Source: Clostridiaceae bacterium
GTDB lineage: Bacteria; Bacillota; Clostridia; Acetivibrionales; DUMB01
Assembly: GCA_012840535.1 (NCBI GenBank)
Contig: DULF01000174.1
Coordinates: 1 to 38,589 of the forward strand
Reading direction: 5' to 3'
DNA: 38,589 bases
Shown here: positions 5,904-36,020 of the stretch, piece after piece
How the letters are laid out: each line of letters begins with the position of its first letter
Numbering within the stretch: position 1 is the first letter of the stretch
The notes under the pieces: generated by a model
The model's input: the letters and a program-made list of their open reading frames with translations, nothing else
Told to the model about the DNA's origin: nothing
Database searches by the model: none
Position numbers and translations under genes: made by a program

Positions 5904-8231
5904 TTAAATCTTTTTAAATATCAATGAAAGTACTTCTTTCCCCTGTTCCAATCTTCTCACTATTGCTAAAGGTTCAAACTTTATTATACCGGTATCTATA
6001 AATAAATCTACCTTGCTCTCGGAAAAATATTTAATCTGAGGTATCTTCTCGATTAATTGCTCAACTTCTTTCTCTATAGGTTTATTTTCATTATTTAAAA
6101 CTTTCATTAAGTCATTATAAAATTTTTGCTCTTCATGTATATCACAAAAATAATATGTATCTTGAATAGGCCTAATATTAAACTTGTTTACAGTAATTGT
6201 AACTTTTTTATTATAGATTGCCGTTTTTTCAGCTGCTTTAACTTTTGTACCTATGAATAATTCCTCAATAGTAGTAAATTTTTTATGATAGAACCTGGAT
6301 TTTTCAAATTGACGCACAATTTTTAATCGGCTTTTCAAATATTCCATAGTATCTGAGTCAACAGAATATACAAAAACTCCTTTTATCCCTCTTGTAAGAA
6401 GTGTTTTGTATGTATTTTGAGCAAGCCTTAAAAACTGACCACCACAATTTTCCCCTATTTTCTTATCATAACATTTTGTCACATCAGCCTGCCACTTTCC
6501 TAATTTTTTATTATAAGTAAATTCTTCACCCATAATAACACCAACATAATCAAATTCCAGGCCCTGGCAAGTATGAATACATCCAATTTGATTAACTCCA
6601 TTTGGATTTATTGCCCAATCTGCACCACTTAAAGGAATATCTTTCGGTCGTTTTGAGTTATATGTATCTTGAGGATTCCAAGGCATCTCAAAAATCAGTT
6701 TTCCATCTTTGTAAATCTTGACATCTTTAACCAACTCACCATTTTCGTCCAAATCCTTGCTCCATGGCCATGCATAACCTGCAACTATTCTTGAATTAAA
6801 ACCTTGAGCCTGAAGGTTTACAATAATATCTCGCAACTCATTTGGATCATCAATTATATTGAATTCAAAATTATCCAAATCTTCCCATCCGGTTGCATTA
6901 GCTGTTTCCCGAATACCTAATACATCATCCAACCAATTTATGTATCCCTCAGACCCTCCGCAGCGAAACTGCGCGTCTAATTCATATTCATATATTTTAC
7001 ACCCTAATTTAGTTGCTACATCTTTTACATGGCTATACGACCCAATATCATTAGGCCTAATCATTTGATTATCGTCTGTAAAGAAAACTGTAAGATGCGT
7101 TTTGGATATAATTTCTTCAACAATACTTTTCTTTAATTTTTTTTGCATCGGTGGTGGTGTAGAGCTAATACGATGCGCTTCATCTACAATAGCAGTCTGA
7201 AAAGTTTTCTTAGACAACGTTAGTTCTTTATTATAATAATAAGGGTGTTTAAATAAACGTTTTGCTCTTTCAATATCTATTTTGTTAGCCATGCCATTTT
7301 TAAAAGCAGCATTCGGCGCCAAATAGATACATTCTTTTCCCTCACGCAATATTTTTGCCAATAGATTAAGCCCCACAACTGATTTACCTGTTCCCGGACC
7401 GCCTCTTACAAGAACAACAAATTTTCCATCACTTCCATCTAATGAGTAGTCTCTTACTATTTGCATTACCCTGTCAAAAACTACAAGTTGATTATCCATT
7501 AATATAAACTCGGATTTCGCATCGATAATATTGTTAATATGATCAATTAATTTTTTAGTTGGTCTGGGAATTGTATCTTCTATATAATCAAGGAGTTCAA
7601 GTCCGTCTCCTTTTTCCACATGAGTTCTAATAAATGATCCGATTTTTTTGACATCAGATTTTGTAAAAACTGGATTGTCTTCAATATATGGTTTAAATTT
7701 ATCGTCAAATAGCTTATCTGTTTCAGTAGCTTTATAATTATGTAAATAAGAACATGCAAATAATTTTATTGCATTTTCATTTTCGGGATCAAATGCTGGA
7801 TGATAGTCCATTAGATATTGCTTATAAGTTGATACTTGAATTGCTGGATGATTTACTTCTCTAATAGTACCACCTATATAAGTCAATACCTGCCTTTCAG
7901 TATTTGTTTCTTCCACCTTTTCCCATTGTTTTAGTTCCACAATTACAGCATTTGGATTTAAGAACTTGTCCTTGCCTGTTATCATAAAATCAAGGCGCAT
8001 GGATGATTGCGGCAATTTATATTCAATTAAAACACCACAATCCTTATTATGTAAATCTTCATTAGTAAGTACTTCATTCATTTTACTTAAAGAATTTTGA
8101 AAAGAGTGTCTTTCAGAATCAGACACCCTTCTACCAAGGATTTTAATAAATTTACTTTCAAGCTTATCTACTATTTTATTATAACGAACATCATGATCAA
8201 AATGTGCAGTACTACTTTTGTAAATAACCAT
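5904..8231 (-). CDS. PD-(D/E)XK nuclease-DUF2075/Schlafen-group-3-type helicase fusion
   Basis: This is a 775-residue protein. The N-terminal 160 residues carry a restriction-endonuclease-like core: Glu70 in LIEYKLP, Asp81 in RLDFMI, then VELKQW with Glu99 and Lys101, the D-x(n)-ExK pattern. A superfamily 1-type helicase/ATPase of the DUF2075 (PF09848) kind follows: Walker A GGPGTGKS at 277-284, Walker B VDEAH at 349-353, FTDDNQM near 384, QFRCGGSEGY near 420, HTCQGLEFDYVGV and TLLTRGIKGVFV as motifs V and VI. The C-terminal ~130 residues are lysine-rich and unassigned. GAGGTG precedes the ATG by 8 bases. It lies 19 bases after the MazG-like gene, so the two are co-transcribed. Nuclease-helicase fusions of this kind usually act against invading DNA or RNA; that role is inferred here. 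Confidence 0.88.
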   Translation of the reverse strand: MVIYKSSTAHFDHDVRYNKIVDKLESKFIKILGRRVSDSERHSFQNSLSKMNEVLTNEDLHNKDCGVLIEYKLPQSSMRLDFMITGKDKFLNPNAVIVELKQWEKVEETNTERQVLTYIGGTIREVNHPAIQVSTYKQYLMDYHPAFDPENENAIKLFACSYLHNYKATETDKLFDDKFKPYIEDNPVFTKSDVKKIGSFIRTHVEKGDGLELLDYIEDTIPRPTKKLIDHINNIIDAKSEFILMDNQLVVFDRVMQIVRDYSLDGSDGKFVVLVRGGPGTGKSVVGLNLLAKILREGKECIYLAPNAAFKNGMANKIDIERAKRLFKHPYYYNKELTLSKKTFQTAIVDEAHRISSTPPPMQKKLKKSIVEEIISKTHLTVFFTDDNQMIRPNDIGSYSHVKDVATKLGCKIYEYELDAQFRCGGSEGYINWLDDVLGIRETANATGWEDLDNFEFNIIDDPNELRDIIVNLQAQGFNSRIVAGYAWPWSKDLDENGELVKDVKIYKDGKLIFEMPWNPQDTYNSKRPKDIPLSGADWAINPNGVNQIGCIHTCQGLEFDYVGVIMGEEFTYNKKLGKWQADVTKCYDKKIGENCGGQFLRLAQNTYKTLLTRGIKGVFVYSVDSDTMEYLKSRLKIVRQFEKSRFYHKKFTTIEELFIGTKVKAAEKTAIYNKKVTITVNKFNIRPIQDTYYFCDIHEEQKFYNDLMKVLNNENKPIEKEVEQLIEKIPQIKYFSESKVDLFIDTGIIKFEPLAIVRRLEQGKEVLSLIFKKI

Positions 8232-8250
8232 TTAGCTGACACCTCATTCA

Positions 8251-8565
8251 TTATAACTCAGTATATTTTTTGCTTGAACCTTTACATTTATCGATCGGAT
8301 ACTTTTTTTCGTTTTTATCAATTTTATCATTTATTATTTCAATAATATCAGCATTAAGTGCATCAGCCATTAAAATACAATAATTCATAATATCTGCCAA
8401 TTCTTCCAAGACAGCCTCTCTGTTATAGTTATTATTCCATTGGAAATTTTGCAATAACTCTCCTGCTTCAATTGAAATTGACTTTGCAATATTTTCCGGA
8501 GTATGAAACTGTTTCCAATCACGATCATCTCTGAATTTTATTATTCTTTTAACAAGTTCCTCCAT
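8251..8565 (-). CDS. MazG-like nucleotide pyrophosphohydrolase
   Basis: This 104-residue all-helical protein has the all-alpha NTP pyrophosphatase metal motif: EAGE at residues 33-36 and EELAD at 54-58, the ExxE...ExxD pattern that binds magnesium. It also has the HTPENIAKSISIEAGELL stretch seen in small MazG-like/dCTP-pyrophosphatase relatives. Such enzymes hydrolyse (d)NTPs to monophosphate and pyrophosphate. AGGAGG lies 6 bases before the ATG. It is the first gene of a two-gene unit with the nuclease-helicase. The pairing suggests it alters nucleotide pools during the same response, for example dNTP depletion on infection. That is inference; housekeeping nucleotide clean-up is the alternative. 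Confidence 0.85.
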   Translation of the reverse strand: MEELVKRIIKFRDDRDWKQFHTPENIAKSISIEAGELLQNFQWNNNYNREAVLEELADIMNYCILMADALNADIIEIINDKIDKNEKKYPIDKCKGSSKKYTEL

Positions 8566-13763: not shown

Positions 13764-14789
13764 TTACTCTTCGTCCATAACAATAATCACTTTCATCGCT
13801 TTATCCTTTTGTTCATCAATTATTTGATATGCCCTTTGGTATTCTTTGAATGGCACGTGGTTTGTAATCAGCGAGTCAAATTCTATGAGGCCCGCTTCTG
13901 TGAGTTCTATTGCTTTTATAAAATCTTCAACGCGATACATAGCAGTTCCTGCCACTGTGAGCTCATGGTCCTGGATCAGGGCAGCATTCATATTCACCAA
14001 GCCTTCGAATACGCCAACTACGATAATATGGCTTCCCTTGCGCGCATATTCAATAGCCTGGTTCATGGTTTCGCTTGCACCAACGCATTCAAATATGACA
14101 TCTGCTCCATCCGGTCCAAAAAATTCATGGATTGCTTCCTTCAGCTCTTTCTTAAAAGGATTAACTGTTTCTATCCCGGCTTTTTTTGCCACTTCCAAAC
14201 GGTATTCGCTTATTTCAGAAATCAGTACTTTGCTTGCGCCCATTGCTTTGGCTGTCTGTGCTACAAGATTGCCAATCGTTCCTCCGCCCAGGACAAGTAC
14301 ATTCTTATCCTTTATATCTCCATAGCGCCTCACTGCATGAACTCCTACTGCCAGCGGCTCAATCATCGAACCATGGTCCCAGCTGATACTATCCGGCAAC
14401 TTTAATGCCTTTGCAGCTTCTGTTACAAAATACTCACTTGCCATTCCTGTTGTCTGGAACCCCATAACTTTCAATACTTCACAGTCGTTGTACAATCCAT
14501 GTGTACAGGGATAGCATTTGCCGCAAACCACCTGGGGCTGTATTGTTACCTTGTCCCCTGGCTTAAAGCCTGTCACATTCTCTCCTACTTCCACTACTTC
14601 TGCGGACACCTCGTGGCCCTGTACTACAGGATAGCTGGTAAAGGGATGTTTGCCATGATAGACATGAACATCCGAACCACACACGCCGATACGCTTCATT
14701 TTCACTTTTATTTGGTCTGGACCGACTGCGGGTACGTCCACTTCCCGAAATATAATCTCGCCCGGTTTTGTCATCATTGCTTGTATCAT
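13764..14789 (-). CDS. Zinc-dependent medium-chain alcohol dehydrogenase, sorbitol dehydrogenase-like
   Basis: This 341-residue MDR-family NAD(P)-dependent dehydrogenase has catalytic zinc ligands C37 (GVCGSD) and H59-E60 (GHE). The structural zinc cysteines are C89, C92, C95 and C103. The Rossmann glycine motif LGGGTIG lies at 167-173, followed by an acidic residue in ISEISEYR that favours NAD. The early HVYHGKHPF and the overall order fit polyol dehydrogenases such as sorbitol, xylitol or threonine dehydrogenase. GAGAGGAG precedes the ATG. Its place between a PfkB kinase and a URO-D-like gene in a transporter operon suggests oxidation of a polyol to a ketose. The exact substrate is not determined by the sequence. 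Confidence 0.9.
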   Translation of the reverse strand: MIQAMMTKPGEIIFREVDVPAVGPDQIKVKMKRIGVCGSDVHVYHGKHPFTSYPVVQGHEVSAEVVEVGENVTGFKPGDKVTIQPQVVCGKCYPCTHGLYNDCEVLKVMGFQTTGMASEYFVTEAAKALKLPDSISWDHGSMIEPLAVGVHAVRRYGDIKDKNVLVLGGGTIGNLVAQTAKAMGASKVLISEISEYRLEVAKKAGIETVNPFKKELKEAIHEFFGPDGADVIFECVGASETMNQAIEYARKGSHIIVVGVFEGLVNMNAALIQDHELTVAGTAMYRVEDFIKAIELTEAGLIEFDSLITNHVPFKEYQRAYQIIDEQKDKAMKVIIVMDEE

Positions 14790-14905: not shown

Positions 14906-15889
14906 TCAGCCGGCATACTGTTTAATCATGTTCACAATATCATCAAGCACGGGCATTGCAGGAATCGCCCCGTTCTTAGTAGTGGACAATGCCCCTGCTG
15001 CATTTGAAAATGTTAAAGCTTCAGATAATGATTTATCATCAGGATTATAAGGATCAAAATTGCCGGACAGAATTTGATACAAAAACGCTCCCCAAAATGT
15101 ATCGCCTGCGCCAACAGTATCTATTGTTTTTACATCAAATCCGGCCGATGTCAGTATGTCTTGTCCGTAAGTCGCTTTGCATCCCTTGCTTCCCATTGTA
15201 ACAACCAGTACTTTCATCGAACTGTTTTGATTAAACAGTTCAAGTAATGCATTGTCAACATCACCAATACCTGTCAGGAAGCACAACTCTTCTTCCGAAA
15301 CCTTTACAACATCACAATATTTCATCGCACCGGAAATTACTTCTCTTGCTTCAGATAAGCTATCCCACAGCAGCTCCCGTAAGTTGGGATCGTATGAGAT
15401 AAGCGCTCCATAATCTTTTGCTTTCCTTACTGCATACAAAGTTGTTCCCCTGGCTGGTTCGGTTGTCATGGAGACAGAGCCGAAATGGAATACTTTTGTT
15501 TCAGATAACAGCGAGCTGTCAATCTCATCGGGGGTAATCATACAGTCTGCAGTTTGATTGCGGTAAAAGCTGAACTCTCTGTCACCATTTTTATCTAATG
15601 ATACAAATGCCAGTGTAGTGGGATACTTATCTGATATAACAAGAGATGAAGTATTGATATTGCAACCGCTCAAAGTGGAATGAAGCAACTTTCCAAAAAC
15701 ATCATTTCCCACTTTTCCGATAAAAGCTGTATTAAGGCCAAATTTAGAAGCGCAGGCAAGTACATTTGCAGGCGCGCCGCCAGGGCAGCCGCTGAAATTC
15801 AGCTTTCCTTGTTCTTGATATGGAGATGGCACAAAGTCAATTAAACATTCGCCAATTGCTACTATATCATATTTTTTTTGCATATCCAT
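14906..15889 (-). CDS. PfkB-family sugar kinase, probably fructokinase
   Basis: This ribokinase-fold kinase of about 327 residues shows the N-terminal substrate motif GGAPANVL, the FIGKVGNDVFG segment and the C-terminal anion-hole/catalytic motif DTVGAGDTFWGAF. IGECLIDFVP at the start is typical of bacterial fructokinases of this family. The ATG overlaps the TGA of the upstream mannitol-type dehydrogenase (TGATG). AGGAG lies 7 bases before it, so translation is coupled. A GTG one codon earlier is a possible alternative start. In this operon it would phosphorylate the ketose made by the two dehydrogenases. Other PfkB substrates such as 2-keto-3-deoxygluconate cannot be excluded. Confidence 0.88.
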   Translation of the reverse strand: MDMQKKYDIVAIGECLIDFVPSPYQEQGKLNFSGCPGGAPANVLACASKFGLNTAFIGKVGNDVFGKLLHSTLSGCNINTSSLVISDKYPTTLAFVSLDKNGDREFSFYRNQTADCMITPDEIDSSLLSETKVFHFGSVSMTTEPARGTTLYAVRKAKDYGALISYDPNLRELLWDSLSEAREVISGAMKYCDVVKVSEEELCFLTGIGDVDNALLELFNQNSSMKVLVVTMGSKGCKATYGQDILTSAGFDVKTIDTVGAGDTFWGAFLYQILSGNFDPYNPDDKSLSEALTFSNAAGALSTTKNGAIPAMPVLDDIVNMIKQYAG

Positions 15890-17337
15890 CACAATTCTCC
15901 TATCAGTTCCTCCATGGTTGAAAGAACGCCTTTTGATTCAATATCATTGCAATATTTTAGATACCATTCTATGAAATTATTTGAAGAGCCCAAGTTAACA
16001 CCGGAAAAGCAAGATAATCCGATAAAGTCTAACGGGTTGCCACTGTTGATCAGTATTTGATCGGTTTCCAGAAGCCCCGGATCGTCTATCTTGTATGATA
16101 CGCCTCTTTCATCCTTATCACTTCTTAAATACAGCCGATACGCAGCTACTAAAAACGCAATCCTTTTCATATCGGCATTTGCTTCAAGCATAGCTTTTAA
16201 TGTGGGTATCATAAATACCGGAATCTTGTTGGCCGCATCAAAACACAGCCTGGAAAGCTGGTCACTAACCTCTTTATTTTTCAACCGCTCCATAAAAGTT
16301 GTCTTGTATACTTCCAGATCGGTATTTGGCGGAGGTGATAAATAAGGCGTCACATCAAGATCCATGTATTGCCTCAGATAGGTCGCAATGCGTTCATCGG
16401 CAACAGCTTCGTCTACTCTGCGATATCCCGCAAAAAAAGCCGGGAAAGATAACATCTGATGTGTGGAATTAACAATACCCAGTTTCATGGCTTCGTATTT
16501 GGATACATCATCCGTGAACTCGACGCCTGCACGTTCCCACGCCGGACGTCCAGCCAGGAACTTGTCTTCTATCACCCACTGCACGAAATCCTCGCAATAT
16601 ACCGGGACAAGGTCTTCGTGGCCATTTTTGGCATAAAGCTTCGGTATATCTTCTTCCAGTGTTGCGGGCGTAATGCGGTCTACCATTGAATTTGGAAAGC
16701 TTACATTGTTCTTGGCCCAGTTGTATAGCTGCATATCCGCTTTTTCGAAGAATGACATAAAAGAATCCCGGCAAACATCCCCATTGTGAGGAAGGTTGTC
16801 ACAGCTGAGAATAGTGACCGGTCCTGCATTTGCCGCCATCCTTTTACGCAATCCGGCAGCAACATACCCAAAGACAGTCCGCGGTTTTTCAGGAAGCTTT
16901 AAATCATAAAGTATATTTTCATTTGAAAAATCGAATTTACGAGTTTTCTTGTCGAGGTTGTAGCCTCCCTCTGTAATGGTAAGCGTAATTATTTTCGTGG
17001 AAGTATCAGCCACTTTGTCAATGATAGCCGTTGGATTCTCAATCCCCCAAAACAATTCAACTATGGAACCGATCCGGTAATATTCGTCTTTTCCCGAGCG
17101 CCCGTAAACTGTCAGGCCATAGCAGCAATCCTGCTTTTTTAATCTTCTGAAAACATATTCATCTTTTTCAAGAATCATTGCCCCGCAAATACCCCAGTTT
17201 TTCTGGTCAGGATAAGTCAGCAGCAAATTTGTATAATATGCCTGATGCGCCCTGTGAAAATTCCCAACCCCAAAATGCAAGATACCTGGTGTTATTGACT
17301 TTCGGTCATAGGCTAACTCATAAATTTTTATACTCAT
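15889..17337 (-). CDS. Long-chain mannitol dehydrogenase/fructuronate reductase family protein
   Basis: The protein has about 482 residues from the ATG at 17337, which has an AGTGAG site; a GTG four codons earlier is less likely. The NAD-binding motif GILHFGVGNFHRAHQ lies near the start. The family signature PNSMVDRITP is near residue 217. The catalytic K-x4-N-x2-H motif appears as KLGIVNSTH (K285, N290, H293), matching the Lys/Asn/His triad of mannitol 2-dehydrogenase. Members oxidise mannitol, arabinitol or mannonate (UxuB). The presence of a second polyol dehydrogenase and a PfkB kinase, and the absence of UxuA/UxaC or KDG-aldolase genes, favours a hexitol role over hexuronate. It lies 43 bases downstream of the permease and overlaps the kinase start. 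Confidence 0.9.
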   Translation of the reverse strand: MSIKIYELAYDRKSITPGILHFGVGNFHRAHQAYYTNLLLTYPDQKNWGICGAMILEKDEYVFRRLKKQDCCYGLTVYGRSGKDEYYRIGSIVELFWGIENPTAIIDKVADTSTKIITLTITEGGYNLDKKTRKFDFSNENILYDLKLPEKPRTVFGYVAAGLRKRMAANAGPVTILSCDNLPHNGDVCRDSFMSFFEKADMQLYNWAKNNVSFPNSMVDRITPATLEEDIPKLYAKNGHEDLVPVYCEDFVQWVIEDKFLAGRPAWERAGVEFTDDVSKYEAMKLGIVNSTHQMLSFPAFFAGYRRVDEAVADERIATYLRQYMDLDVTPYLSPPPNTDLEVYKTTFMERLKNKEVSDQLSRLCFDAANKIPVFMIPTLKAMLEANADMKRIAFLVAAYRLYLRSDKDERGVSYKIDDPGLLETDQILINSGNPLDFIGLSCFSGVNLGSSNNFIEWYLKYCNDIESKGVLSTMEELIGEL

Positions 17338-17380
17338 TGTATCACTCACTTTTCAATTGATTTTATTGAATGTCAGTTTT

Positions 17381-18331
17381 TTAGGATCTCCTTCTTTTAC
17401 GGCTTATGCTGTCGAATACGACAACAGTAAAGAGAACGATACCGGTAATGACTTTTTGCCAATAATCGTTTGCTCCAATAATTGACAATCCATTATTAAG
17501 CACGCCGATGATAATTGCTCCGATAATGGCACCGGGAATGGTCCCTTTACCGCCATTAACGCTTACACCGCCTAAAACGCATGCAGCCAGAACGTTCATT
17601 TCAAAACCATCTGCAATCTTTGGCTGTCCCGATCCAACACGCGTCAGCATGACCAATCCGGCAATACAGGTTAAAAATCCTAACAGCGTATATGTCGTGG
17701 TACGTGTAAAGTGAACGTTAATACCGGCCAGCCTGGTGGCTTCTGCATTACTGCCAAGGGCATAAAAATGGCGCCCTAAATATGTTTTGTTAAGGAGAAT
17801 GATGCCGAATGCGATAACTGCAGCAGTAATCACCGCCGGAACCGGTATTAGGTTAAAAATATTTCCTTGTCCGATAAACTTCAAAGATTCCGGCACTCCA
17901 TATATCGGGTAACCTTTCGTAAAAATAAAAGCCAATCCGCGTAATGCAGTCATCATTGCCAAAGTAGCAATGAGAGGCGGAATTTCAGTCTTCGATATCA
18001 TATAGCCATTAAACAATCCTATCGCTGTTGTCATAGCTATTCCAATAATTATCGCCAGTATGGGATTTACACCCAGATTCTCTATCATTAAGGCAATAGA
18101 AACATTCATGATCGCTATTTGAGAACCGACAGACAGGTCTAAACCTCCACCCAGCAAAACAAAAGTAAACCCTACAACTACGATGCTCATGACGGCTATC
18201 TGTCGCAGGATATTCATTGCATTTTTTATAGTGAAAAATGCCGGAGACAAAATAGAAAAGATAATCACTAATGCGATTAAAACAGCTACTATTGCATATT
18301 GCTTAAAAAAATTCGCAAGTTTTAATTTCAA
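17381..18331 (-). CDS. Sugar ABC transporter permease (RbsC type)
   Basis: This 316-residue membrane protein of the BPD_transp_2 family has about eight to ten hydrophobic helices. Conserved segments include VLLGGGLDLSVGSQIAI, ALGSNAEATRLAGINV (the cytoplasmic EAA-like loop contacting the ATPase) and LGGVSVNGGKGTIPGAIIGA, all typical of ribose/xylose/galactose permeases. The start codon is TTG at 18331, supported by AGGAGG 7 bases upstream. The gene begins 11 bases after the ATPase stop, which implies tight co-translation. It forms the membrane channel with the ATPase and the (interrupted) binding protein. Confidence 0.93.
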   Translation of the reverse strand: MKLKLANFFKQYAIVAVLIALVIIFSILSPAFFTIKNAMNILRQIAVMSIVVVGFTFVLLGGGLDLSVGSQIAIMNVSIALMIENLGVNPILAIIIGIAMTTAIGLFNGYMISKTEIPPLIATLAMMTALRGLAFIFTKGYPIYGVPESLKFIGQGNIFNLIPVPAVITAAVIAFGIILLNKTYLGRHFYALGSNAEATRLAGINVHFTRTTTYTLLGFLTCIAGLVMLTRVGSGQPKIADGFEMNVLAACVLGGVSVNGGKGTIPGAIIGAIIIGVLNNGLSIIGANDYWQKVITGIVLFTVVVFDSISRKRRRS

Positions 18332-18342
18332 AGCTACCCCTC

Positions 18343-19848
18343 CTAATAAACCCCTGATGCCATTGCCAGCACCCTGTTTTGCGAGAATTCATTTTTCTCG
18401 AGAAAACCAACTATTCTTTTTTCTCTAAGAACCATCAAGCGATCTGAAATATTCAGCAATTCACCCATATCAGAAGAAATTAATATAACTGCCTTGCCTT
18501 GCTTTGCAATATCGGCGATCAGGTTATATATTTCCTGTTTTGCGCCAACATCAACGCCTCTTGTCGGTTCATCCAAAATCAAAATACTTGCCTTGCTTGC
18601 AAGCCATTTTGCCAGCACTACTTTTTGCTGATTACCGCCGCTGAGACTTTCAACATTTTGACTCATGCTTGCTGCTTTAATTCTAAGACTTCTCTTTAGA
18701 TTATCCACAATAGCATTTTCTTCTTTCTTTTTCAGAAAACCTTTGTTTGAAATCCTCTTCAAAATCGGCAAGGTTATATTCCAATTAATCGGGAGGGACA
18801 GAATTGCTCCATGATGTTTTCTGTCTTCAGGAACATATGCTATCCCAAAAAATACTGCATCTTTTGGGGACTTTATTTCAACCTGTTTGCCGTGTACAAG
18901 AATCTTTCCGCTTTCTGCTTTGTCTGCTCCAAAAATAATGCGTGCCAGTTCTGTTCTCCCGGCGCCAAGCAGCCCTCCTATTCCTAAAATTTCTCCACGG
19001 CGAACCTTAAAAGAAATATCTTTTAATCCATTTCCGCAAAGTCCTTGCGCCTCAAATGCAACATCACCCTTCTCCCAGGTTGATTCAAACTCGATTTCTT
19101 CAACTTTACGGTTTGTCATGTGATAAATCAGTTCCTGGCGCGTAATATCTTCTATTTTAGTGGTGATAATCTTTTTCCCGTCCCGCATTACTGTCACGCG
19201 ATCAGCAATCTGATACAATTCATCCAAACGATGAGAAATATAAATAATCGTTACACCTTGTTGTTTCAGGCGGCCGATTAACTCGAAAAGATCTTCTGTT
19301 TCTTTAGTAGACAGCGGTGCGGTCGGCTCATCCATAATCAAGATTTTGGAATTTTTCGCAATAGCTTTTGCAATTTCGACCAATTGCATTTTCGCGGTAG
19401 TCATATTTTCAATCAATTCCACCGGATTGATATTTATTTTCATGCTTTCAAGAACTTTTTTTGCTTTCTCGATGTAATATTTCTTATTATAAATGTACTT
19501 TCTCTCATTCGATAAAATCTCATCACCCATAAAGATGTTTTCAGCAACTGACAGTGTTGGAAACAGGTTAAATTCCTGATAGATTGTTGCTATACCGATG
19601 CATTGAGCGAGATGCGGCGATAATTTTTCAAAGGTTTGATCTTTGAATACAAGCCTGCCGGAATCGGGGATTTCCGCACCTGATATGATCTTTATCAATG
19701 TGGATTTCCCCGCTCCGTTTTCACCGACCAATGCATGCGTTTCGCCTTCTTTAAAGTCAATTGACACATTGTCAAGAGCTTGTATACCTGCATAGCGTTT
19801 GGATATGTTTTGTACTGACAATACAACATTGTCAACTGTATTACTCAT
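18343..19848 (-). CDS. Sugar ABC transporter ATPase with two ABC domains (RbsA/MglA type)
   Basis: At 501 residues it has two fused nucleotide-binding domains. The first has Walker A GENGAGKST near residue 39, a degenerate signature (MTTAKMQLVEIAKA) and Walker B LIMDEPTAPLS. The second has a degenerate Walker A region (GLLGAGRTEL), an intact signature LSGGNQQKV and Walker B ILDEPTRGVD. This asymmetry is normal for the RbsA/MglA/XylG family. GGAG lies 10 bases before the ATG. It energises uptake through the RbsC-type permease encoded directly downstream. Confidence 0.95.
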   Translation of the reverse strand: MSNTVDNVVLSVQNISKRYAGIQALDNVSIDFKEGETHALVGENGAGKSTLIKIISGAEIPDSGRLVFKDQTFEKLSPHLAQCIGIATIYQEFNLFPTLSVAENIFMGDEILSNERKYIYNKKYYIEKAKKVLESMKININPVELIENMTTAKMQLVEIAKAIAKNSKILIMDEPTAPLSTKETEDLFELIGRLKQQGVTIIYISHRLDELYQIADRVTVMRDGKKIITTKIEDITRQELIYHMTNRKVEEIEFESTWEKGDVAFEAQGLCGNGLKDISFKVRRGEILGIGGLLGAGRTELARIIFGADKAESGKILVHGKQVEIKSPKDAVFFGIAYVPEDRKHHGAILSLPINWNITLPILKRISNKGFLKKKEENAIVDNLKRSLRIKAASMSQNVESLSGGNQQKVVLAKWLASKASILILDEPTRGVDVGAKQEIYNLIADIAKQGKAVILISSDMGELLNISDRLMVLREKRIVGFLEKNEFSQNRVLAMASGVY

Positions 19849-19985: not shown

Positions 19986-21029
19986 TTATTCATTTAAAAA
20001 TTCCTGAACATTCTCGATTGTTATCGGTGTCGTATCGTAGATTATATGACCTTCAACCTCTTCGCCTTTGCTTGCTGCTATGCAGACGTCAACAGCGCGT
20101 GGAAGTGCATCGTATGCTCCTGACATTACTGTTCCACGATAAATTGTTCCTTTTGCGATTAATTCCAGAGCTTTCGGGTCTCCATCGGCTCCAAAGAGTC
20201 CAATATTATCCCCTACGTGTCCTGCTGCTGTAAAGACTTCATAGGCACCCAAAACACCTGTATCGTTAATTCCGCAGATAATTTGTATATTGGGATGCGC
20301 TGCAAGGAAGTTTTCCGCCTGGACATTACCTTCGTCGCCAACACCTGCTTTCTGCTGTGCAACAACTTTTACATTCGGAGCTTGCTTGAGACCGTCTATG
20401 ATACCCTTTGCCCTGTCTATTATAAGTGGGATGTCAGGATAATCAAATATACCGGCTTCTATTACTTCCTGATTCTTGAGTTCAGGATGTGAATTAACCC
20501 ATTCTGCTGCCATAGTACCAGTCTGGTACCCATATTTATAGTTATCCAAATTTAAGGAACCTTGCGCACCTTCAACGTAACCATCATAGGTCATAACAAA
20601 AATACCATTGTCAACGGCTTTTTTAACAACGTCTTTGATACCTTTGTCATCAAATACTACAGCGATGATCGCCGTAACACCTGAGGAAATGAAATTCTCG
20701 AATGTTGAAATCTGCTTGTTAACGTCATGGTTTTCGTCAGAAATTATGCATTCTACACCTTTTTCTTTGCAATAATCCTGGATTATCTGCGCCATTTTCG
20801 AGTAGAAAAGATTTTGAGTTGTTCCCATAGAAACGCCGATTTTCACTGGCCGTTCAGATGAAGACTTGTTTTCATCTGTTTATGTCTCGTTTGTTTGTGA
20901 CTCGCTTGTTTGTGAAGAACTATCTGTTTCTTTTGCAGAGTCACTGGTACCGGACTGCTTTGACGAGCATCCTGCCACTATAGCGAACAGGAACACTACA
21001 GTCAATAAAATTACTAAAGCTTTCTTCAT
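19986..21029 (-). pseudogene. Sugar ABC transporter binding lipoprotein, interrupted by an in-frame TAA
   Basis: The minus-strand frame starts at ATG 21029 with GGGGGAAA upstream. It encodes a lipoprotein signal peptide (MKKALVILLTVVFLFAIVAG then Cys21) and a Ser/Thr/Gln/Glu-rich linker. A TAA at codon 50 (complement of 20880-20882) interrupts it. The same frame then continues without further defect for 297 codons. The downstream part is a complete RbsB-like periplasmic binding protein (peripla_BP_4): VKIGVSMGTTQNLFYS, ISSGVTAIIAV, GINDTGVLGA, GADGDPKALE. A CAA-to-TAA change in the linker is the simplest explanation. A GTG at 20846 could start the mature domain but has no ribosome binding site and would leave the protein without a signal. 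Either the transporter is inactive, readthrough occurs, or the base is a sequencing error. It is the first gene of the polyol operon. Confidence 0.88.
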
Positions 21030-21428: not shown

Positions 21429-21457
21429 TTGTTAAAAATAAAACTTTATGTTAAAGT
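21429..21457 (+). promoter_or_regulatory. Candidate promoter of the ROK repressor
   Basis: TTGTTA (21429-21434) and TAAAGT (21452-21457) are spaced by 17 bases and would start transcription about 35 bases before the chosen ATG. The ATG at 21448 lies between these elements and so cannot be the start if this promoter is used. Confidence 0.5.
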
Positions 21458-21498
21458 ATAAGTGTAAGTTTCAATGTAAAGCAGGGGGTACAATTAAT

Positions 21499-22626
21499 AT
21501 GGTAGATAAAGGCATAACCTCATTGAACGTAAAAGTGATCAATAGAAACAAAGTTTACAATTGTATATATAAAGAAGTTTTTACGTCCAAACAGCAAATT
21601 GCAAATAAGCTTCAAATGGGCATATCTACTGTAAGCCAGAATATCAAATCCTTAGAAAAAGATGGACTTATCGAAAGAAACGGCAACTTTGATTCAACAG
21701 GCGGAAGAAGAGCCGATATAATCCAGATCGTACGCAATGCCCGAGTTGCAATCGGCGTCGGAATCTTAAAGAAATATGTTTTTATAGTAGCAGTCGATTT
21801 ATATGGTGAAATAATACACTCCGTGACTTTGAATCTTCCTTACGAATCATCGAGAGACTATTATAAAACCATCGGTGATAAAGTTGATGAATTTATCCGG
21901 ACAAACCAAATAAAACCAGAATCAATACTCGGTGTTTCAATAGCTACTCAGGGTATTATTTCCTCTGACGGGCAATCCGTAAGTTACGGTGTAATTATGG
22001 GCAATCACGAAATGAAGCTCTCCAGTTTTACGGAATTCATTCCTTATCCGTGCCGTTTGGAACATGACTGCAAAGCTGCAGCATATTTAGAGTTGTGGAA
22101 GAACAAGGATATAGAAAACGCCGTGGTTTTTCTATTAAATCGCAATTTAGGCGGCTCATTCATAATAAACAGGCGAATTTTCCAGGGTGTGAATATGCAC
22201 GGAGGTGCGCTTGAACATCTGTGCATTAATAAAGACGGGCCACTTTGCTATTGCGGGAACCGAGGTTGTTTGGAAACATATTGTTCCGCAAACACTATTG
22301 AAAATGCATCTGGCATGGAAATTCAGGTATTTTTTGAAAACCTGAGAAAAGGCGTAAACAGTTGTGTTCAGATTTGGACAGATTATCTTGACAAACTGGC
22401 ATTTGCCATACGCAACTTAAGCATTATAATAGATGGACATATTATTATAAGCGGTTATCTGGCTCCGTTTTTTACTGAAGATGATATTTCTTATATTCTA
22501 CGGGCAGCAAATTCTCCTCCCTTCCCCATTGAGCGGGATCAAATTCTTGTGGGAACATACGGACAATATACTCCTGCGGCCGGAGCTGCCTTACATTACT
22601 TAGACGAGTTTCTGCAAACAGTTTAA
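21499..22626 (+). CDS. ROK-family transcriptional repressor
   Basis: The protein has 375 residues from the ATG at 21499, which follows AGGGGGT by 9 bases; an upstream in-frame ATG at 21448 lacks a site. The N-terminal winged helix is about residues 20-62 (TSKQQIANKLQMGISTVSQN, SLEKDGLIERNG). The ROK sugar-binding domain follows, with the zinc motif H240 in GALEH and C250, C252, C257 in CYCGNRGC. The kinase-like residues are not evident, which fits a XylR/NagC-type regulator rather than a glucokinase. It is divergent from the polyol operon, with the palindromic operator array between them. It most likely represses the operon until the imported sugar or polyol binds. Confidence 0.93.
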   Translation: MVDKGITSLNVKVINRNKVYNCIYKEVFTSKQQIANKLQMGISTVSQNIKSLEKDGLIERNGNFDSTGGRRADIIQIVRNARVAIGVGILKKYVFIVAVDLYGEIIHSVTLNLPYESSRDYYKTIGDKVDEFIRTNQIKPESILGVSIATQGIISSDGQSVSYGVIMGNHEMKLSSFTEFIPYPCRLEHDCKAAAYLELWKNKDIENAVVFLLNRNLGGSFIINRRIFQGVNMHGGALEHLCINKDGPLCYCGNRGCLETYCSANTIENASGMEIQVFFENLRKGVNSCVQIWTDYLDKLAFAIRNLSIIIDGHIIISGYLAPFFTEDDISYILRAANSPPFPIERDQILVGTYGQYTPAAGAALHYLDEFLQTV

Positions 22627-26369: not shown

Positions 26370-26428
26370 CGAAATTGGTCATAAAATGTTTCTTTATGTC
26401 AAATCAAACCTTTTATTGCTGCAGTCCT

Positions 26429-26693
26429 TCAAAATGAAACAGGCAAAAAAGCAGCAATTACAGCAAATATAATTGCCGGAAGCATGTTGGCAACTTTTAT
26501 TTTTCTGCCCCAATACAAGGTTCAGCCCAACGCAGAAAATAAGAACGGAGCCTGCAGGAGAAAGATAACCCAATGCCAAATTTGTCATTACCGGCTTCAA
26601 CAATGATGCAAAAACTGTTATCATACCTTCGAACACAAAAACCGGAATGGCGGAAAAAATGCATCCGCATCCTTTGCCAATTGATTTCAGCAC
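26429..26693 (-). pseudogene. DUF554 membrane protein, C-terminal remnant with frameshift
   Basis: The minus strand encodes FSAIPVFVFEGMITVFASLL...LSPAGSVLIFCVGLNLVLG, matching the last third of DUF554 membrane proteins (GVLFSAIPVF.YQG.ITLLASFL...L.A.GGLLI.GLGLNLL). At about 26517 the frame shifts by one base, and the expected ending GRKIKVANMLPAIIFAVIAA is read in the neighbouring frame to a TGA at 26429-26431. The first roughly 150 residues of the family are missing, so both a 5' truncation and a frameshift are present. Confidence 0.75.
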
Positions 26694-26703
26694 TGAGTGA
26701 CTG

Positions 26704-26916
26704 TTAAAAGAGTTGTACCTGGGATGCTGGTAAATCCATCCCTAATTCATAAATTCTGTTATTCCTGTATACAGACAGAAATTTATATGTTTTCCCATCT
26801 TCTGCCCGTTGTTTTATAGGAGTTGCAATATAATCAACACCGTTTAACAATTGTTCCAAGCTTTTATCAAATGTAAACAGGTTTACACCTCTGCCTATCT
26901 CCTCATTGCAATCTTC
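26704..26916 (-). pseudogene. Unrecognised C-terminal protein fragment
   Basis: An open minus-strand frame without start codon reads GRGVNLFTFDKSLEQLLNGV, continues with DYIATPIKQRAEDGKTYKFL, and ends ELGMDLPASQVQLF and TAA at 26704. Composition and codon use look like real protein. I do not recognise the family. It lies between the chemotaxis-protein remnant, which it overlaps by a few bases in another frame, and the DUF554 remnant. I infer that deletions joined three gene fragments. Confidence 0.35.
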
Positions 26917-27764
26917 TTAGTTCACTCATCAATTTCAGCCCTTGGTTTTTATAGTCTATTATTCTGTCCATATTATCAGTGACGCGCCTGATATGTTCCT
27001 GGTTATCCGAAAGTGTCTCTTCCAACTTGGCTATATGTAATGCTATTTTTTCAGTATCGGACACTACGCTCAAAGAACCGGCAGCTATATCTTCAATAGC
27101 ATTAGTGACTTCATTTAACGATTTCTTAAATTCGTTGCTGCCTTTTCTTAGTACTTCTGTTTCAGCCTCTAATTGAGTCACTTTTTCATATATATAATTT
27201 GCAATATTTCCAACATTCTTAAATCCGCCTGTTCTCTTTTCAGTATTAATTTTCATCAGCTCAACTGTCTCTTTAAATGTTCTTAAAGATTTATATGCTG
27301 TCTAAATAAAACCAAAAACACCAACAGATTCAATAACATATCCAATATGGCTTTATTGTTTATATCATCAGACATCCTTGAAACAGCAAAAATTACGTGT
27401 GTTAATACAGCTGTTGCCAGGATTGATTGCGTCAACTTCCTCTCGAGAAACATTAAGACATTGTTATCAATATGCCAAATACAATAAAATTACCAAGTGA
27501 AATTTCTGTAGTAAACATAAGGAACACATGGTTTATGTACAGTCCTGCTAAAGAAAAATATTTAATTAACTTGGAGGCTTTGTTTATTTTATATATAATA
27601 AACAAAGCTATACAAAGTGACAACCCCAACAAAACAGAAACAAATAAAGGCATTAGAGTGATTTTTTCAGCAACATATCCTACAATGCAATTAAGTATAA
27701 ATATTATATACATTACAGGAGTCAATAGAATTAATTGTTTGTTTGCTTTTCTTTCTATATTCAC
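26903..27764 (-). pseudogene. Methyl-accepting chemotaxis protein, broken by two frameshifts and truncated
   Basis: Three successive minus-strand frames make one protein. 27764-27453 encodes four hydrophobic helices (start GTG, MNIERKANKQLILLTPVMYI). 27453-27283 continues with MFLERKLTQSILATAVLTHV and another helix. 27301-26903 gives a cytoplasmic helix, AYKSLRTFKETVELMK, leading into a coiled coil with EVTNAIEDIAAGSLSVVSDT, the start of a chemoreceptor signalling domain. The highly conserved hairpin tip and the C-terminal half of the signalling domain are missing. The gene therefore has two frame changes (near 27453 and 27290) and a 3' truncation. An intact receptor would have signalled to CheA; this one cannot. 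Confidence 0.65.
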
Positions 27765-27900: not shown

Positions 27901-29394
27901 CTAGACCAGTCCTTTATCCGTTTTCTTAACATGCTTAAATACTTCTTCAAATCTGTTCAGGGCTTCGTCTATTATTTCAGGTGTGTCTGCCAAAGATGTA
28001 TACAGCCTGCTTCCGGCAAGGGTTACAATTCCGTTTGCCATGTAGGCCGCTCCCATTCTTTCCATGGAGTCCTTTCTCTCATACATCATTTTCTTATGCT
28101 TCAGAATTCCGACCGCCGATTTTATAAATGACATTGAAGAAAAGTCGAAACTCATCGCCCCCGTACACTCCAGGTGCACAATAGATCCCTGGTTATACGC
28201 GACATAAGGTAAGCCATACCTGTCAATCAATTCCTTTAATCCGTCACAGAGCCGGTCTCCCATTCGGCCAGCAATTTCACAGGCATTTGTTCTTTCAATC
28301 TCCCGGATTGCCGTATATCCCGCTAGACAGGAAAGAGGATTGGCAGCCAGGGTTCCACCTACGTACGCTCTTTTCTTTCCTGTGGCAAGGCCTGCAGCCA
28401 TAAGCTGCACATATTCTTTTTTGCCGCCTACGCCGCCTGCACCGGGATATCCTCCGGCTACAATCTTGCCAAAGATTGTTAAATCAGGAACCACGTTGAA
28501 ATATCCCTGTGCTCCGCCAAGTCCAACACGGAATCCTGTCACCACTTCATCAAAAATCAGGAGCGCTCCGTATTTATCGCAGAGTTTGCGCACTTCCGTG
28601 TTATATTCCTTTGAAATCGGCCTTGTTCCGCTTTCGGGACCAACAGGCTCTAAAATTACCGCAGCAGTGCCGCCCTTCAGCCGGTTAATCTTCAACATTT
28701 TTTCAAGCATGTTCAAATCGTTCGGACGCACTTCATCAGTGTAACGGAAAGCACTCGAAGGAATGCCGTGGGATTCAAGCAATGCCCTGCTTCCGGGAAT
28801 TTTAAGGCCGTAAACCATCTGATCCGACCAGCCGTGGTAAGCACCACCGATTTTAATGATACGTTTTTTCCCTGTGGCAATTCTCGCGATACGCAGCGAA
28901 GCCATCACAGCCTCCGTTCCGGAACCAAGCATGCGGAACATCTCTACATTCGGCATATGCCTGTTGATTTCCTTGGCTATCATAAGCTCCGCTTCGTGTA
29001 GCAAGCCTGTTACGGGACCGCATTCTTTAAGAAGTTCAATGACCTTTTCCCTGATAGCCGGGTAATTGCTGCCAAGGATTGTAGCCCCGCCCGCTTGCAG
29101 GAAATCTATGTACCTGTTTCCGTCCTTGTCATACAGGTATGCTCCTTCCACTTTTACCATGCAAAGCGGAAACGGTTTATTAAATGCCAGGTTGTGTTGA
29201 ACGCCTCCTGGAATATAATTTCGGGCTTCTTCAAAAACAGCTTTTGAAGCTTTGCATTTCTCATTAAAATATTTCAACACGACGTTGTTATAATAGTCGT
29301 CATCAACTTCCCATATTCCCTGGCTCGTAAGTTTTTTAAGTTTTGCATTGATTTCTGTAGGATCATCCCATCTGCTTATTCCACAATTCTTCAT
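27901..29394 (-). CDS. Class III aminotransferase, glutamate-1-semialdehyde aminomutase-like
   Basis: The protein has 497 residues from the ATG at 29394, which has AAGGAGG 9 bases upstream; an ATG further upstream lies inside the previous gene. The PLP fold-type I features are GSGTEA (158-163), AYHGW (185-189), the FDEVVTGFR aspartate D282 and the Schiff-base lysine K310 in TIFGKIVAGG. The core from ARNYIPGGVQHN onward resembles HemL-type 2,1-aminomutases, with about 50 extra N-terminal residues. No tetrapyrrole genes are near. It is the last gene of a kinase-aldolase-aminotransferase operon, so it probably acts on an aldehyde or keto product of the aldolase, or makes an amino sugar. The substrate is unknown. 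Confidence 0.88.
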   Translation of the reverse strand: MKNCGISRWDDPTEINAKLKKLTSQGIWEVDDDYYNNVVLKYFNEKCKASKAVFEEARNYIPGGVQHNLAFNKPFPLCMVKVEGAYLYDKDGNRYIDFLQAGGATILGSNYPAIREKVIELLKECGPVTGLLHEAELMIAKEINRHMPNVEMFRMLGSGTEAVMASLRIARIATGKKRIIKIGGAYHGWSDQMVYGLKIPGSRALLESHGIPSSAFRYTDEVRPNDLNMLEKMLKINRLKGGTAAVILEPVGPESGTRPISKEYNTEVRKLCDKYGALLIFDEVVTGFRVGLGGAQGYFNVVPDLTIFGKIVAGGYPGAGGVGGKKEYVQLMAAGLATGKKRAYVGGTLAANPLSCLAGYTAIREIERTNACEIAGRMGDRLCDGLKELIDRYGLPYVAYNQGSIVHLECTGAMSFDFSSMSFIKSAVGILKHKKMMYERKDSMERMGAAYMANGIVTLAGSRLYTSLADTPEIIDEALNRFEEVFKHVKKTDKGLV

Positions 29395-29425
29395 CGGCTT
29401 AACCTCCTTTTCGTTTAAACTTTTC

Positions 29426-30412
29426 CTATCCTTTTTGCTTTGAATACACCGTTTTGTAAACAAACTTCATTAATACCGCTTCAATGACGCCGATCCGCGC
29501 TTTTTCACTGCAGGCAGCCGTATGAATGCTGCAGATTGCCGCCTTGTCCACCAAAAGTTTAATCGCTTTCATATCATCTTCAGATTCTGACCTCACAACA
29601 GCTCCGATACCCGGCACGAGCACAGCGTTTAGTCTCTTTAAGGCTTGAGCGGCTTCATTATCAGGTACCACGGGGATTTTCCGGCCAATCATCTGGGCCA
29701 TGTCATCCACCTGTGCATAAATAGGGGTTCTCCTGTTTGCGCATGACAGGACCGCCGGGGTTTGCACAAGGGCCGCATAACGGAATTTTTCCTTTATGGC
29801 ATCAAGAAGCTTTTCTGCTTTACCGGACTTTATATCTTGTGTCACTTCAAAATCGCCCTTGATATTCCTTTTGCAGATGCCTTCCAAAAGGATTGCCTTG
29901 CTCATTGCCTCTTCCTGGTTGTTGCCGCATATCAGGACGCCATGGTTTTTCATAAGCACTGCCTTTGCTCCGGCCTGAAAAGCAGCCTTTACTGCTTTCG
30001 TCAGCTTTTTAGTTCCGGGAAGGCCGTAATCCGCTGTCATGATACCGCCAAGAGCTTCTTTTTCCTCCTTTGTTATGTCCAATTGTTCAAAACCTGCCAG
30101 GCCCAATGCCGAAGCATAAGTTTGATGTGTATGGATAACAAAGTTGACATCGGGAAACGCCTGATACGCGGCAATGTGAACGCGCCTTTCGCCTGAGGGC
30201 TTGCGTACGCCCTGCCACTTGCCGGTTGTAAGGTTCATCTTTACAATGTCCTCTTCCTTTGTTTTCATATAATCAAGTCCGCTTGGCGTAATGAGAATGT
30301 TTTCCGCATCCAGCCTGCAACTTATATTTCCCCATGTTCTGGCAACAAGTCCCGCTTCCAGGAGCTTTTTGCCGGTGTTCACAAGCAGCTTCCTCGCTTT
30401 GCTTTCTTCCAT
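29426..30412 (-). CDS. Class II aldolase with extra C-terminal domain
   Basis: The protein has 328 residues from the second ATG, chosen because GGGAGG lies 7 bases upstream of it and abuts the first. The N-terminal domain has the full active-site set: WGNIS (28-32), PSGE with Glu75, the zinc pair His94-Thr-His96, and His157 in KNHG. Residues about 195-328 form an additional segment (ALVQTPAVLSCANRRTPIY, VLVPGIGAVVRSESEDDMKA) that looks like a reduced second aldolase domain. It should cleave a phosphorylated ketose, made by the upstream FGGY kinase, into DHAP and an aldehyde. The gap to the kinase is 60 bases and to the aminotransferase 31 bases. Confidence 0.85.
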   Translation of the reverse strand: MEESKARKLLVNTGKKLLEAGLVARTWGNISCRLDAENILITPSGLDYMKTKEEDIVKMNLTTGKWQGVRKPSGERRVHIAAYQAFPDVNFVIHTHQTYASALGLAGFEQLDITKEEKEALGGIMTADYGLPGTKKLTKAVKAAFQAGAKAVLMKNHGVLICGNNQEEAMSKAILLEGICKRNIKGDFEVTQDIKSGKAEKLLDAIKEKFRYAALVQTPAVLSCANRRTPIYAQVDDMAQMIGRKIPVVPDNEAAQALKRLNAVLVPGIGAVVRSESEDDMKAIKLLVDKAAICSIHTAACSEKARIGVIEAVLMKFVYKTVYSKQKG

Positions 30413-30452
30413 TCTCATGCCTCCCTTCTCACTCTCACATTCTCATGCCTCC
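30410..30452. repeat. Duplicated Shine-Dalgarno/start region
   Basis: The 15-mer CATTCTCATGCCTCC occurs at 30410-30424 and again at 30438-30452. On the minus strand each copy reads GGAGGCATGAGAATG. The downstream copy starts the aldolase; the upstream copy gives only Met-Arg-Met-stop. Confidence 0.8.
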
Positions 30453-30472
30453 TCTTTTTACGGCTCCCCGCT

Positions 30473-32062
30473 TTAACCGTTCAACATGGCAAAGCTTTTT
30501 TTATTGGTTTTATACAGCCTTTTATAAACCTCGTAGTTCTTGTCGTATATCTTTTTCTTTTCCAAATCTGGTTCATAGCGCTGTTTTACAGGAATAAAAT
30601 CTTTAATTGCCGACATCCCTGGAAGCTTTCCACTTCCCACTGCTGCCAGCATGGCTGCTCCAACGGCGCCCACATCCTTTGAGGCCTCGACTGTTTCTAT
30701 AACCCTTCCCGTAATATCTGAAAGGATCTGGCAAGTGACCGCGGACAACGCGCCGCCTCCGACAAAGCGTATTGTATTGGAAGTTCTGACCTTTTTCTCC
30801 TGGGATTCAAGCATCCAGCGAAGATGGTAACAAATGCCCTCCAGCACAGCCCTGATCAGTTCTGTTTTCCCGGTCTCAAGCTTTATGTTGAAAAACATTC
30901 CGGACGCATTGGGATCTTCAAACGGGCACCTGTTTCCGTGAAGCCATGGCGTGAAAATCACACCGCCGGCTCCGGGCCCTATCTTTGATATGGTTTCCGA
31001 CATATAATCATAAAGGCTTTCATATAAGCTTTCCTTGCTTTCAGCAACGTGTATCTTTTTTAAGTAGACGCCGATCTCATCCAGAACCAGATGATCCTTT
31101 ACCCATTCAAAGCATTTTCCCGCAGTTTCCATTTCCGCAAAGTAATTATATTTTCCGGTTTCAACACCAATGATGCTGGCAATCTTTGCAAAAACGTCAA
31201 CAACCTGCTTGTCAAGCACAGTGCCGACCCAGCCCGATGTTCCGCAATAGATATATGTGTCACCGACATTGATGCATCCTGCGCCAACACCTATAAGAGT
31301 CGCATCACCGCCCCCTCCGTAAACCGGAATTCCGGGCTTAAGCCCCAGGTCATGCGCTGCCTTTTCGGTAAGGACCCCTGCCTGGTCCGAACAGTCTATA
31401 ACCTTCGGAAGGTGCTCAGGATATATGCCGTACATTTTGCAAAGGGCCTTGCTCCAGCACCATTTGCCCGGCCTGGTATCATAGAGAAAGGTAGCATATG
31501 CGGAATCCTTCGTCATGACAAACTGGCCTGTGCAGCGGCAGATCAAATACTCTTTCACGTCCAGCCACTTATGTACCTTTGAAAAGATCTCCGGTTCGTT
31601 GTTCTGTACCCATTTGTATTTCCAGATGGGATCCTTTACGCTGGTGGGCGCGGCACGGGTGATGGTCAGGCTTTTAATGAGCTTTAGCGCATTGGCGCCG
31701 GAAACAGTAAGACCACGCCCCATGCACTCTTTCATCTCTGAAGTCGCCCTCTGGTCCATATAGCTCATAGGCCGCCTAAGCGCATTCCCTTTATCGTCCA
31801 CAAGTACCAGTCCCTGCATCTGTGAACAGAAAGAAATTCCGTCAATCTGCTCCGGCCTGATGTCCGTCTTTTCAAAAAGCCTGCGCGTGGTAGAGCACAT
31901 CGCACTCCACCATTCCTCGGTATCCTGCTCCGCCCCGCCGTTTTCCAGGATGTATAATCCGTATACTTCGTATTCGCCAGCGACCATTTTAAGCGTTTCA
32001 CCGATGTTGAAAAGGCAGGTTTTCACACCCGTGGTTCCAATGTCATAGGCAATCAAATACAA
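30473..32062 (-). CDS. FGGY-family carbohydrate kinase (xylulokinase-like)
   Basis: The start is best placed at the TTG at 32062 (protein beginning MYLIAYDIGTTGVKTC), which has AAGGGGGAG 6 bases upstream. An in-frame ATG at 32086 overlaps that site and has none of its own. The protein has about 529 residues, with the phosphate-1 motif YDIGTTGVK, catalytic-region MQGLVLVDDKG and YMDQR, the adenosine segment GGGGDATLIGVG, CGTSGWVG and C-terminal GGGALSAVTCQILSDITGR. Family members phosphorylate xylulose, ribulose, fuculose, rhamnulose or erythritol. It lies 42 bases after the TetR gene and leads the catabolic genes. Confidence 0.9.
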   Translation of the reverse strand: MYLIAYDIGTTGVKTCLFNIGETLKMVAGEYEVYGLYILENGGAEQDTEEWWSAMCSTTRRLFEKTDIRPEQIDGISFCSQMQGLVLVDDKGNALRRPMSYMDQRATSEMKECMGRGLTVSGANALKLIKSLTITRAAPTSVKDPIWKYKWVQNNEPEIFSKVHKWLDVKEYLICRCTGQFVMTKDSAYATFLYDTRPGKWCWSKALCKMYGIYPEHLPKVIDCSDQAGVLTEKAAHDLGLKPGIPVYGGGGDATLIGVGAGCINVGDTYIYCGTSGWVGTVLDKQVVDVFAKIASIIGVETGKYNYFAEMETAGKCFEWVKDHLVLDEIGVYLKKIHVAESKESLYESLYDYMSETISKIGPGAGGVIFTPWLHGNRCPFEDPNASGMFFNIKLETGKTELIRAVLEGICYHLRWMLESQEKKVRTSNTIRFVGGGALSAVTCQILSDITGRVIETVEASKDVGAVGAAMLAAVGSGKLPGMSAIKDFIPVKQRYEPDLEKKKIYDKNYEVYKRLYKTNKKSFAMLNG

Positions 32063-32104
32063 TATGGTCTCCCCCTTTCCCTCCATGCTTGTTTTTGATA
32101 CGGT

Positions 32105-32737
32105 TTATTGCCGGCTTCCAAGGATGCTGCCCATAAACCTGATGAATTCTTCCGCTACTTTTTCATCATTGTCCAGAATATCTTCTCCACAGAAAATTCT
32201 CATTCTTTCCCTGTAATAGTCACAGCTGTATGAAAATTGCAACATCATCAAGAGGTTGTCAAAAAAGAAGGCCAGCAAACGGGAATCAATGTTAATTTTC
32301 CCATTAGCCGACCGCTTCGCTTTTTCCATCAGCTGCTCATATACAGGCGCCGTACGCGATTCAATCTCCCTGGCCAGAACAGCGGCGTACCGCTTGCAGC
32401 TTCCCGACGTTATCTCGTTGTACATCACATTGTAATTTTTGTGCTTTCTGGAGTGTTCCAGCAAAGCGTAAACGATCCGCCTGATGCATGTCATCACATC
32501 TGCATCGTCCGAAAACGCATCCTTTAAAACCTGCTCCAAAAGCTTCAGGCTGTGCCGTACGCATGCCAGAAAGAAACTGTCCTTATCCTTGAAATATTTA
32601 TAGATCACGCCAACGCTTACACCGGATTTTTTCGCTATTACATTGATATTTGCGCGATCCAGGCCGTTATTGGCAAATTCATCAATTCCGGTTTCAAAAA
32701 TGGTATTAATGGTTTCAGCATCAAGTTTTCTGTACAT
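32105..32737 (-). CDS. TetR/AcrR-family regulator of the kinase-aldolase operon
   Basis: The protein has 210 residues from the ATG at 32737 with TAGGTGG upstream; the ATG 29 codons earlier falls in the leader/operator region. The N-terminal helix-turn-helix is NVIAKKSGVSVGVIYKYFKDKDSFF (residues about 30-54, in part), as in TetR proteins. The C-terminal ~150 residues form the ligand-binding/dimer domain. It is the first gene of its own operon, before the kinase. Three 15-bp direct repeats and an inverted repeat lie between its promoter and start, so it probably represses itself and the operon by blocking transcription, relieved by a sugar or intermediate. Confidence 0.9.
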   Translation of the reverse strand: MYRKLDAETINTIFETGIDEFANNGLDRANINVIAKKSGVSVGVIYKYFKDKDSFFLACVRHSLKLLEQVLKDAFSDDADVMTCIRRIVYALLEHSRKHKNYNVMYNEITSGSCKRYAAVLAREIESRTAPVYEQLMEKAKRSANGKINIDSRLLAFFFDNLLMMLQFSYSCDYYRERMRIFCGEDILDNDEKVAEEFIRFMGSILGSRQ

Positions 32738-32770
32738 ATTTCCACCTATAATTAAAGTTTTTTGGTCTCC

Positions 32771-32824
32771 TTGTTGAAAGACTTTTTGTTGCAAGTCTAC
32801 TTGTTGACGTGAGCCATCACTCAC
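32771..32824. promoter_or_regulatory. Candidate TetR operator: 15-bp direct repeats plus inverted repeat
   Basis: TTGTTG recurs exactly every 15 bases at 32771, 32786 and 32801 (TTGTTGAAAGACTTT, TTGTTGCAAGTCTAC, TTGTTGACGTGAGCC). The palindrome CAAGTCTACTTG lies at 32792-32803 and GTGAG-CCATCA-CTCAC at 32809-32824. All are just downstream of the predicted transcription start. Confidence 0.6.
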
Positions 32825-35787: not shown

Positions 35788-35828
35788 CAGAATACATAAA
35801 TATACCTCTGACCCCTACCTCCCCAAAA

Positions 35829-36004
35829 TGAGATAGCTCAACTCAATAAACCGGGTGTTTATTGAGACAGTCCTGCAGCTCTTAACTACAGGCCCAGCAT
35901 ATAATACTGAGAATATTATATGCTTCGGCGATATTTCCTTCTCCCTGGCCTCACTGCTTTCTCATGCTCCACCAGGGACTGTTAAATACCGCGCCTCTAC
36001 CTCA
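35829..36004 (-). promoter_or_regulatory. Lysine riboswitch (L-box)
   Basis: The minus-strand sequence matches the L-box consensus in order: TGAGGTAGAGGCGCGG at the 5' side of P1, GGAGAAGG...ATATCGCCGAAGC, a long hairpin whose 3' arm runs into GCTGGGCCTG, GACTGTCTC, then GAGCTATCTCA closing P1. P1 pairs TGAGGTAG (complement of 35997-36004) with CTATCTCA (complement of 35829-35836), one G-U pair. L-boxes sense free lysine and switch off lysine synthesis or uptake genes. Followed by a terminator hairpin, this one controls the downstream ABC importer and identifies its substrate class. Confidence 0.93.
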
Positions 36005-36020
36005 CTTATAAAAGTGAGGT
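35999..36020 (-). promoter_or_regulatory. Leader hairpin competing with riboswitch P1
   Basis: On the minus strand ACCTCACTT-TTAT-AAGTGAGGT forms a perfect 9-bp stem whose 3' arm contains most of the 5' strand of the L-box P1 helix. The two structures cannot form together. It lies about 28 bases after the predicted transcription start. Confidence 0.6.

Follow-up and report, generated by a model that had tools for sequence, protein, structure and literature searches.

An in-frame TAA in the linker of a CUT2-type substrate-binding lipoprotein gene of an uncultured clostridium-like bacterium: probably a recent or segregating nonsense mutation

Substrate-binding lipoproteins of the CUT2 (RbsB/XylF-type) family have a lipobox leader, a low-complexity linker and a complete Peripla_BP_4 domain, and their genes precede those for a two-domain ATPase and a BPD_transp_2 permease. 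The gene considered here, on the minus strand of the window (the whole 38,589-nucleotide stretch of DNA that was analysed), shares every one of these features but, unlike them, has a stop codon in its linker. It resembles young nonsense pseudogenes with a single lesion in having one in-frame stop with the rest of the frame intact, and also in having intact orthologs and no relaxed selection as yet; nothing about it is distinctive in that company. With programmed stop-codon readthrough or suppression it shares a stop inside a selected frame and a hairpin downstream, but the stop is TAA rather than TGA or TAG, it is not conserved in relatives and no suppressor tRNA was found in an incomplete tRNA set. 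We consider that the gene, one of many sugar-receptor genes, carries a recent or segregating nonsense (loss-of-function) mutation, and give this reading a probability of roughly 0.64.

The frame opens at an ATG at 21029, preceded by a GGGGGA ribosome-binding site, and closes at its own TAA terminator at 19986, after 347 codons; its conceptual translation (21029-19986, minus strand) reads MKKALVILLTVVFLFAIVAGCSSKQ...SQTNET*TDENKSSSERPVKIGV...FLNE*, with asterisks for stops. Codons 1-49 encode the leader of a lipoprotein (MKKALVILLTVVFLFAIVAGC), then a linker rich in Ser, Thr, Gln and Glu. Codon 50 (TAA, 20882-20880), the sole internal stop, separates this leader from the Peripla_BP_4 domain (Pfam PF13407), which occupies residues 64-324 and matches profile positions 1-258 of 258 with 148.9 bits against a cut-off of 35.1. 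The ATG, the lipobox (VAGC), the linker and the full domain lie in a common reading frame, and most other non-regulator Peripla_BP_4 proteins of the genome bear similar leaders. With a domain score above the cut-off, a lipobox signal peptide in frame with the domain, and ATPase and permease genes adjacent, the gene belongs among the CUT2 substrate-binding lipoproteins, although its product falls below every NCBIfam equivalog cut-off (for xylF, 68 against 389.6 bits). The 297-codon open stretch after the stop is 82% identical to an intact ortholog, and is thus not a product of chance. The first-pass annotation had described an isolated nonsense codon in a frame otherwise unbroken from signal peptide through lipobox and linker to mature domain; its coordinates and description were right, minus-strand translation bearing out the single break and the full-length Peripla_BP_4 match confirming the common frame.

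Table 1. Positions in the window of the interrupted gene, its parts and the neighbouring genes
Feature	Position	Strand	Evidence
CUT2-family substrate-binding lipoprotein gene with a stop at codon 50	19986..21029	-	frame translation, Peripla_BP_4, intact orthologs L009 and L010
Signal peptide with lipobox VAGC (Cys is codon 21)	20967..21029	-	similar leaders elsewhere in the genome
Low-complexity linker containing imperfect repeats of 15 nt, two of which have CAA where the third has TAA	20847..20966	-	sequence register
In-frame TAA, codon 50	20880..20882	-	translation
Perfect 8-bp hairpin, starting one base past the TAA, probably incidental	20855..20878	-	
CUT2 ABC ATPase, two ABC_tran domains, intact	18343..19848	-	
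CUT2 permease (BPD_transp_2), intact	17381..18331	-	
Mannitol dehydrogenase-family polyol dehydrogenase, intact	15889..17349	-	
PfkB-family sugar kinase, intact	14906..15892	-	
Zinc-dependent alcohol/polyol dehydrogenase, intact	13764..14789	-	
Divergent ROK-family regulator, intact	21448..22626	+	

The locus is an operon of the CUT2 type, for a sugar or a polyol. Its other transporter and enzyme frames are all open, as the first-pass annotation had stated. The same annotation had named the system a polyol transporter: the dehydrogenase neighbours (Mannitol_dh and Zn-dependent ADH) and the PfkB gene speak for this, but no operon gene among the SBP (substrate-binding protein), Mannitol_dh, PfkB and Zn-dependent ADH genes reaches an NCBIfam equivalog cut-off, and a polyol may be the ligand, to judge only from the neighbouring Mannitol_dh, PfkB and Zn-dependent ADH genes. 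The interval that separates the ROK regulator from the operon contains a perfect match to a sigma-70-type promoter (TTGACA-17-TATAAT; 21395-21340, minus strand), from which the operon would have a leader of roughly 330 nt; the inverted repeat immediately after it (21362-21340) is a candidate ROK operator.

Elsewhere in the window, a lysine riboswitch (35826-36007, minus strand, 110.6 bits) lies immediately upstream of an ABC transporter for amino acids (35678-33163; SBP_bac_3, BPD_transp_1 and ABC_tran), which is probably a lysine uptake system. A further sugar-catabolism cluster (27901-32824, minus strand) of a class III aminotransferase, a class II aldolase, an FGGY kinase and a TetR regulator has a GC content of 0.47-0.49, above that of its surroundings; and at 5904-8565 (minus strand) a Schlafen group 3-type helicase (SLFN-g3) stands beside a MazG-like protein, possibly as a defence-related pair.

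Within the linker, codons 40 and 45 are CAA and codon 25 is CAG, all specifying glutamine. Set in a 15-nt register, the linker units form a loose repeat (TCTTCACAAACAAGC / GAGTCACAAACAAAC / GAGACATAAACAGAT), in which the TAA of the third unit occupies the position held by CAA in both earlier units and the codon that follows is ACA in all three. The simplest origin of the stop is thus a single CAA to TAA transition, as the first-pass annotation had proposed in its one C-to-T change, and we infer from this register that codon 50 was formerly CAA.

A search of genome contigs found two orthologs, in a Clostridiaceae MAG (L009, 82% identical to the window SBP) and a Lachnospiraceae MAG (L010, 75%). 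At the E-value cut-offs used, none was found among the genomes searched from the genus (a single genome), the family and the order, or in a sample of the class; viral contigs gave no match, and the same genome has no close second copy that might compensate, its best other match being 31% identical. Both orthologs are intact from leader to C-terminus, with the stop in neither, and the SBP-ATPase-permease order is the same in all three. The window gene thus has an in-frame stop that removes its functional domain, with orthologs intact. The domain is conserved among the three, whereas the linkers vary greatly in both length and sequence, which places the stop where the protein is least constrained.

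Against L009, dN/dS for the SBP (over the 286 codons after the linker) is 0.075, a value as low as those of the ATPase (0.083) and the permease (0.107). With L010 as outgroup, the window branch and the L009 branch each carry 15 unique amino-acid changes; to judge from synonymous divergence, neutral evolution would be expected to add roughly 400 nonsynonymous changes over the whole window branch, or about 20 over 5% of it. The counts are approximate, being drawn from three sequences whose synonymous sites are saturated in the comparison with L010; on them, the sequence past the stop shows no relaxation of selection. This suggests that either the stop is very young (less than a few per cent of the window branch), or it is not real, or function has been kept in spite of it. 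Two of the alternatives that the first-pass annotation had listed, a very recent mutation and a base error, fit both the dN/dS of 0.075 and the equal branch counts.

The main rival is that the TAA is a consensus base error, or a minority-strain variant taken up in the draft, the gene being intact in the population. The wholly preserved sequence past the stop, free of relaxed selection, is what this would predict, and the draft is fragmented (240 contigs, 96.7% complete, 2.7% contamination). However, none of the 84 ABC_tran and 33 Peripla_BP_4 matches in the same genome contains an internal stop, in a sample of its premature-stop rate through these two domain families only (117 domain matches), so that a stop-riddled assembly is ruled out; the TAA site is not a homopolymer, and mutation of CAA by a C-to-T transition is nothing unusual. 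We regard this explanation as possible but lean against it, and take the base at 20882 to be probably genuine in the organism. Reassignment of TAA to sense is ruled out by the same 117 domain matches and by the 15 of 29 window genes that end in TAA.

Explanations in which the gene still works despite a real stop have much less to recommend them. Purifying selection after the stop would agree with readthrough of the TAA by a near-cognate or suppressor tRNA, giving some full-length lipoprotein, perhaps aided by the hairpin that starts one base past the stop (20878-20855). Yet the local fold is unremarkable (z-score only -1.64), about two dozen separate comparable hairpins occur in the window, and the conservation of both stop and stimulating element that programmed readthrough would lead one to expect among orthologs is not seen: L009 has neither the stop nor a matching hairpin, and L010 has no stop. 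TAA is also the least leaky of the three stops, its readthrough in E. coli reporters averaging about 0.01-0.05% (PMC11126739). The genome has 46 tRNA-scoring places, with ARAGORN anticodons for all but one; in the exception, a partial gene lying at the end of a contig, the anticodon reads CAT by eye. No UUA (UAA-reading) anticodon occurs among the readable tRNA genes, a set that is incomplete in that tRNA-Gln, tRNA-His and others are also missing. With the standard code in use as well, the readthrough site suggested by the first-pass annotation is very unlikely. The phase-variable site that it also suggested, at which gain and loss of 15-nt linker units would take away the stop or bring it back in frame, fares equally badly: there are three loose units with the TAA in the third, linker length does vary widely between orthologs, and a unit could conceivably be lost in frame, but the units are imperfect, with no long identical repeat or homopolymer, and no other allele has come to light. 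The broader notion of a reversible or leaky off-switch, where the TAA in a repeat-built linker silences the receptor in part of the population or is usefully read through, is very improbable; were it true, unit loss or reversion would turn the sugar receptor on. Least credible of all is translation restart, for example at the GTG at 20846, to yield a binding protein that lacks a leader, stays in the cytoplasm and has taken on a new role. A GTG-started frame of 286 amino acids does exist (20846-19986), but it has no Shine-Dalgarno-like sequence before it, a cytoplasmic copy could not serve uptake, and the GTG corresponds to a conserved Val at the domain start in the intact orthologs.

We favour a nonsense substitution of very recent date in the loosely constrained linker, in the simplest case a C-to-T change that turned a glutamine CAA into TAA; the gene is most likely an ordinary young nonsense-mutation pseudogene. 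Translation would stop after 49 residues, leaving a lipid-anchored stub without the binding domain, and the uptake system would lack its receptor while the ATPase, permease and catabolic genes remained open, so that the loss of uptake with the enzymes retained, which the first-pass annotation had predicted, is plausible from the sequence. The nonsense allele could be fixed in the strain, or be one of several in the population. Another decayed coding sequence lies in the window at 26394-27300 (minus strand), where a DUF554 fragment from the C-terminus (profile 146-200 of 220) is preceded by a coiled-coil stretch that resembles a portion of a chemoreceptor; we counted this remnant in favour of decay of the SBP gene. 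A short EamA gene at 36240 was considered as a second broken gene and rejected, as it looks like an ordinary single-domain EamA protein.

As a practical warning, automatic annotation may call a leaderless protein of 286 amino acids at the SBP locus. If the base is real, the TAA would mark one sugar/polyol uptake receptor whose loss is very recent or segregating; the uncultured clostridium-like lineage concerned has many similar transporters, and such losses are common.
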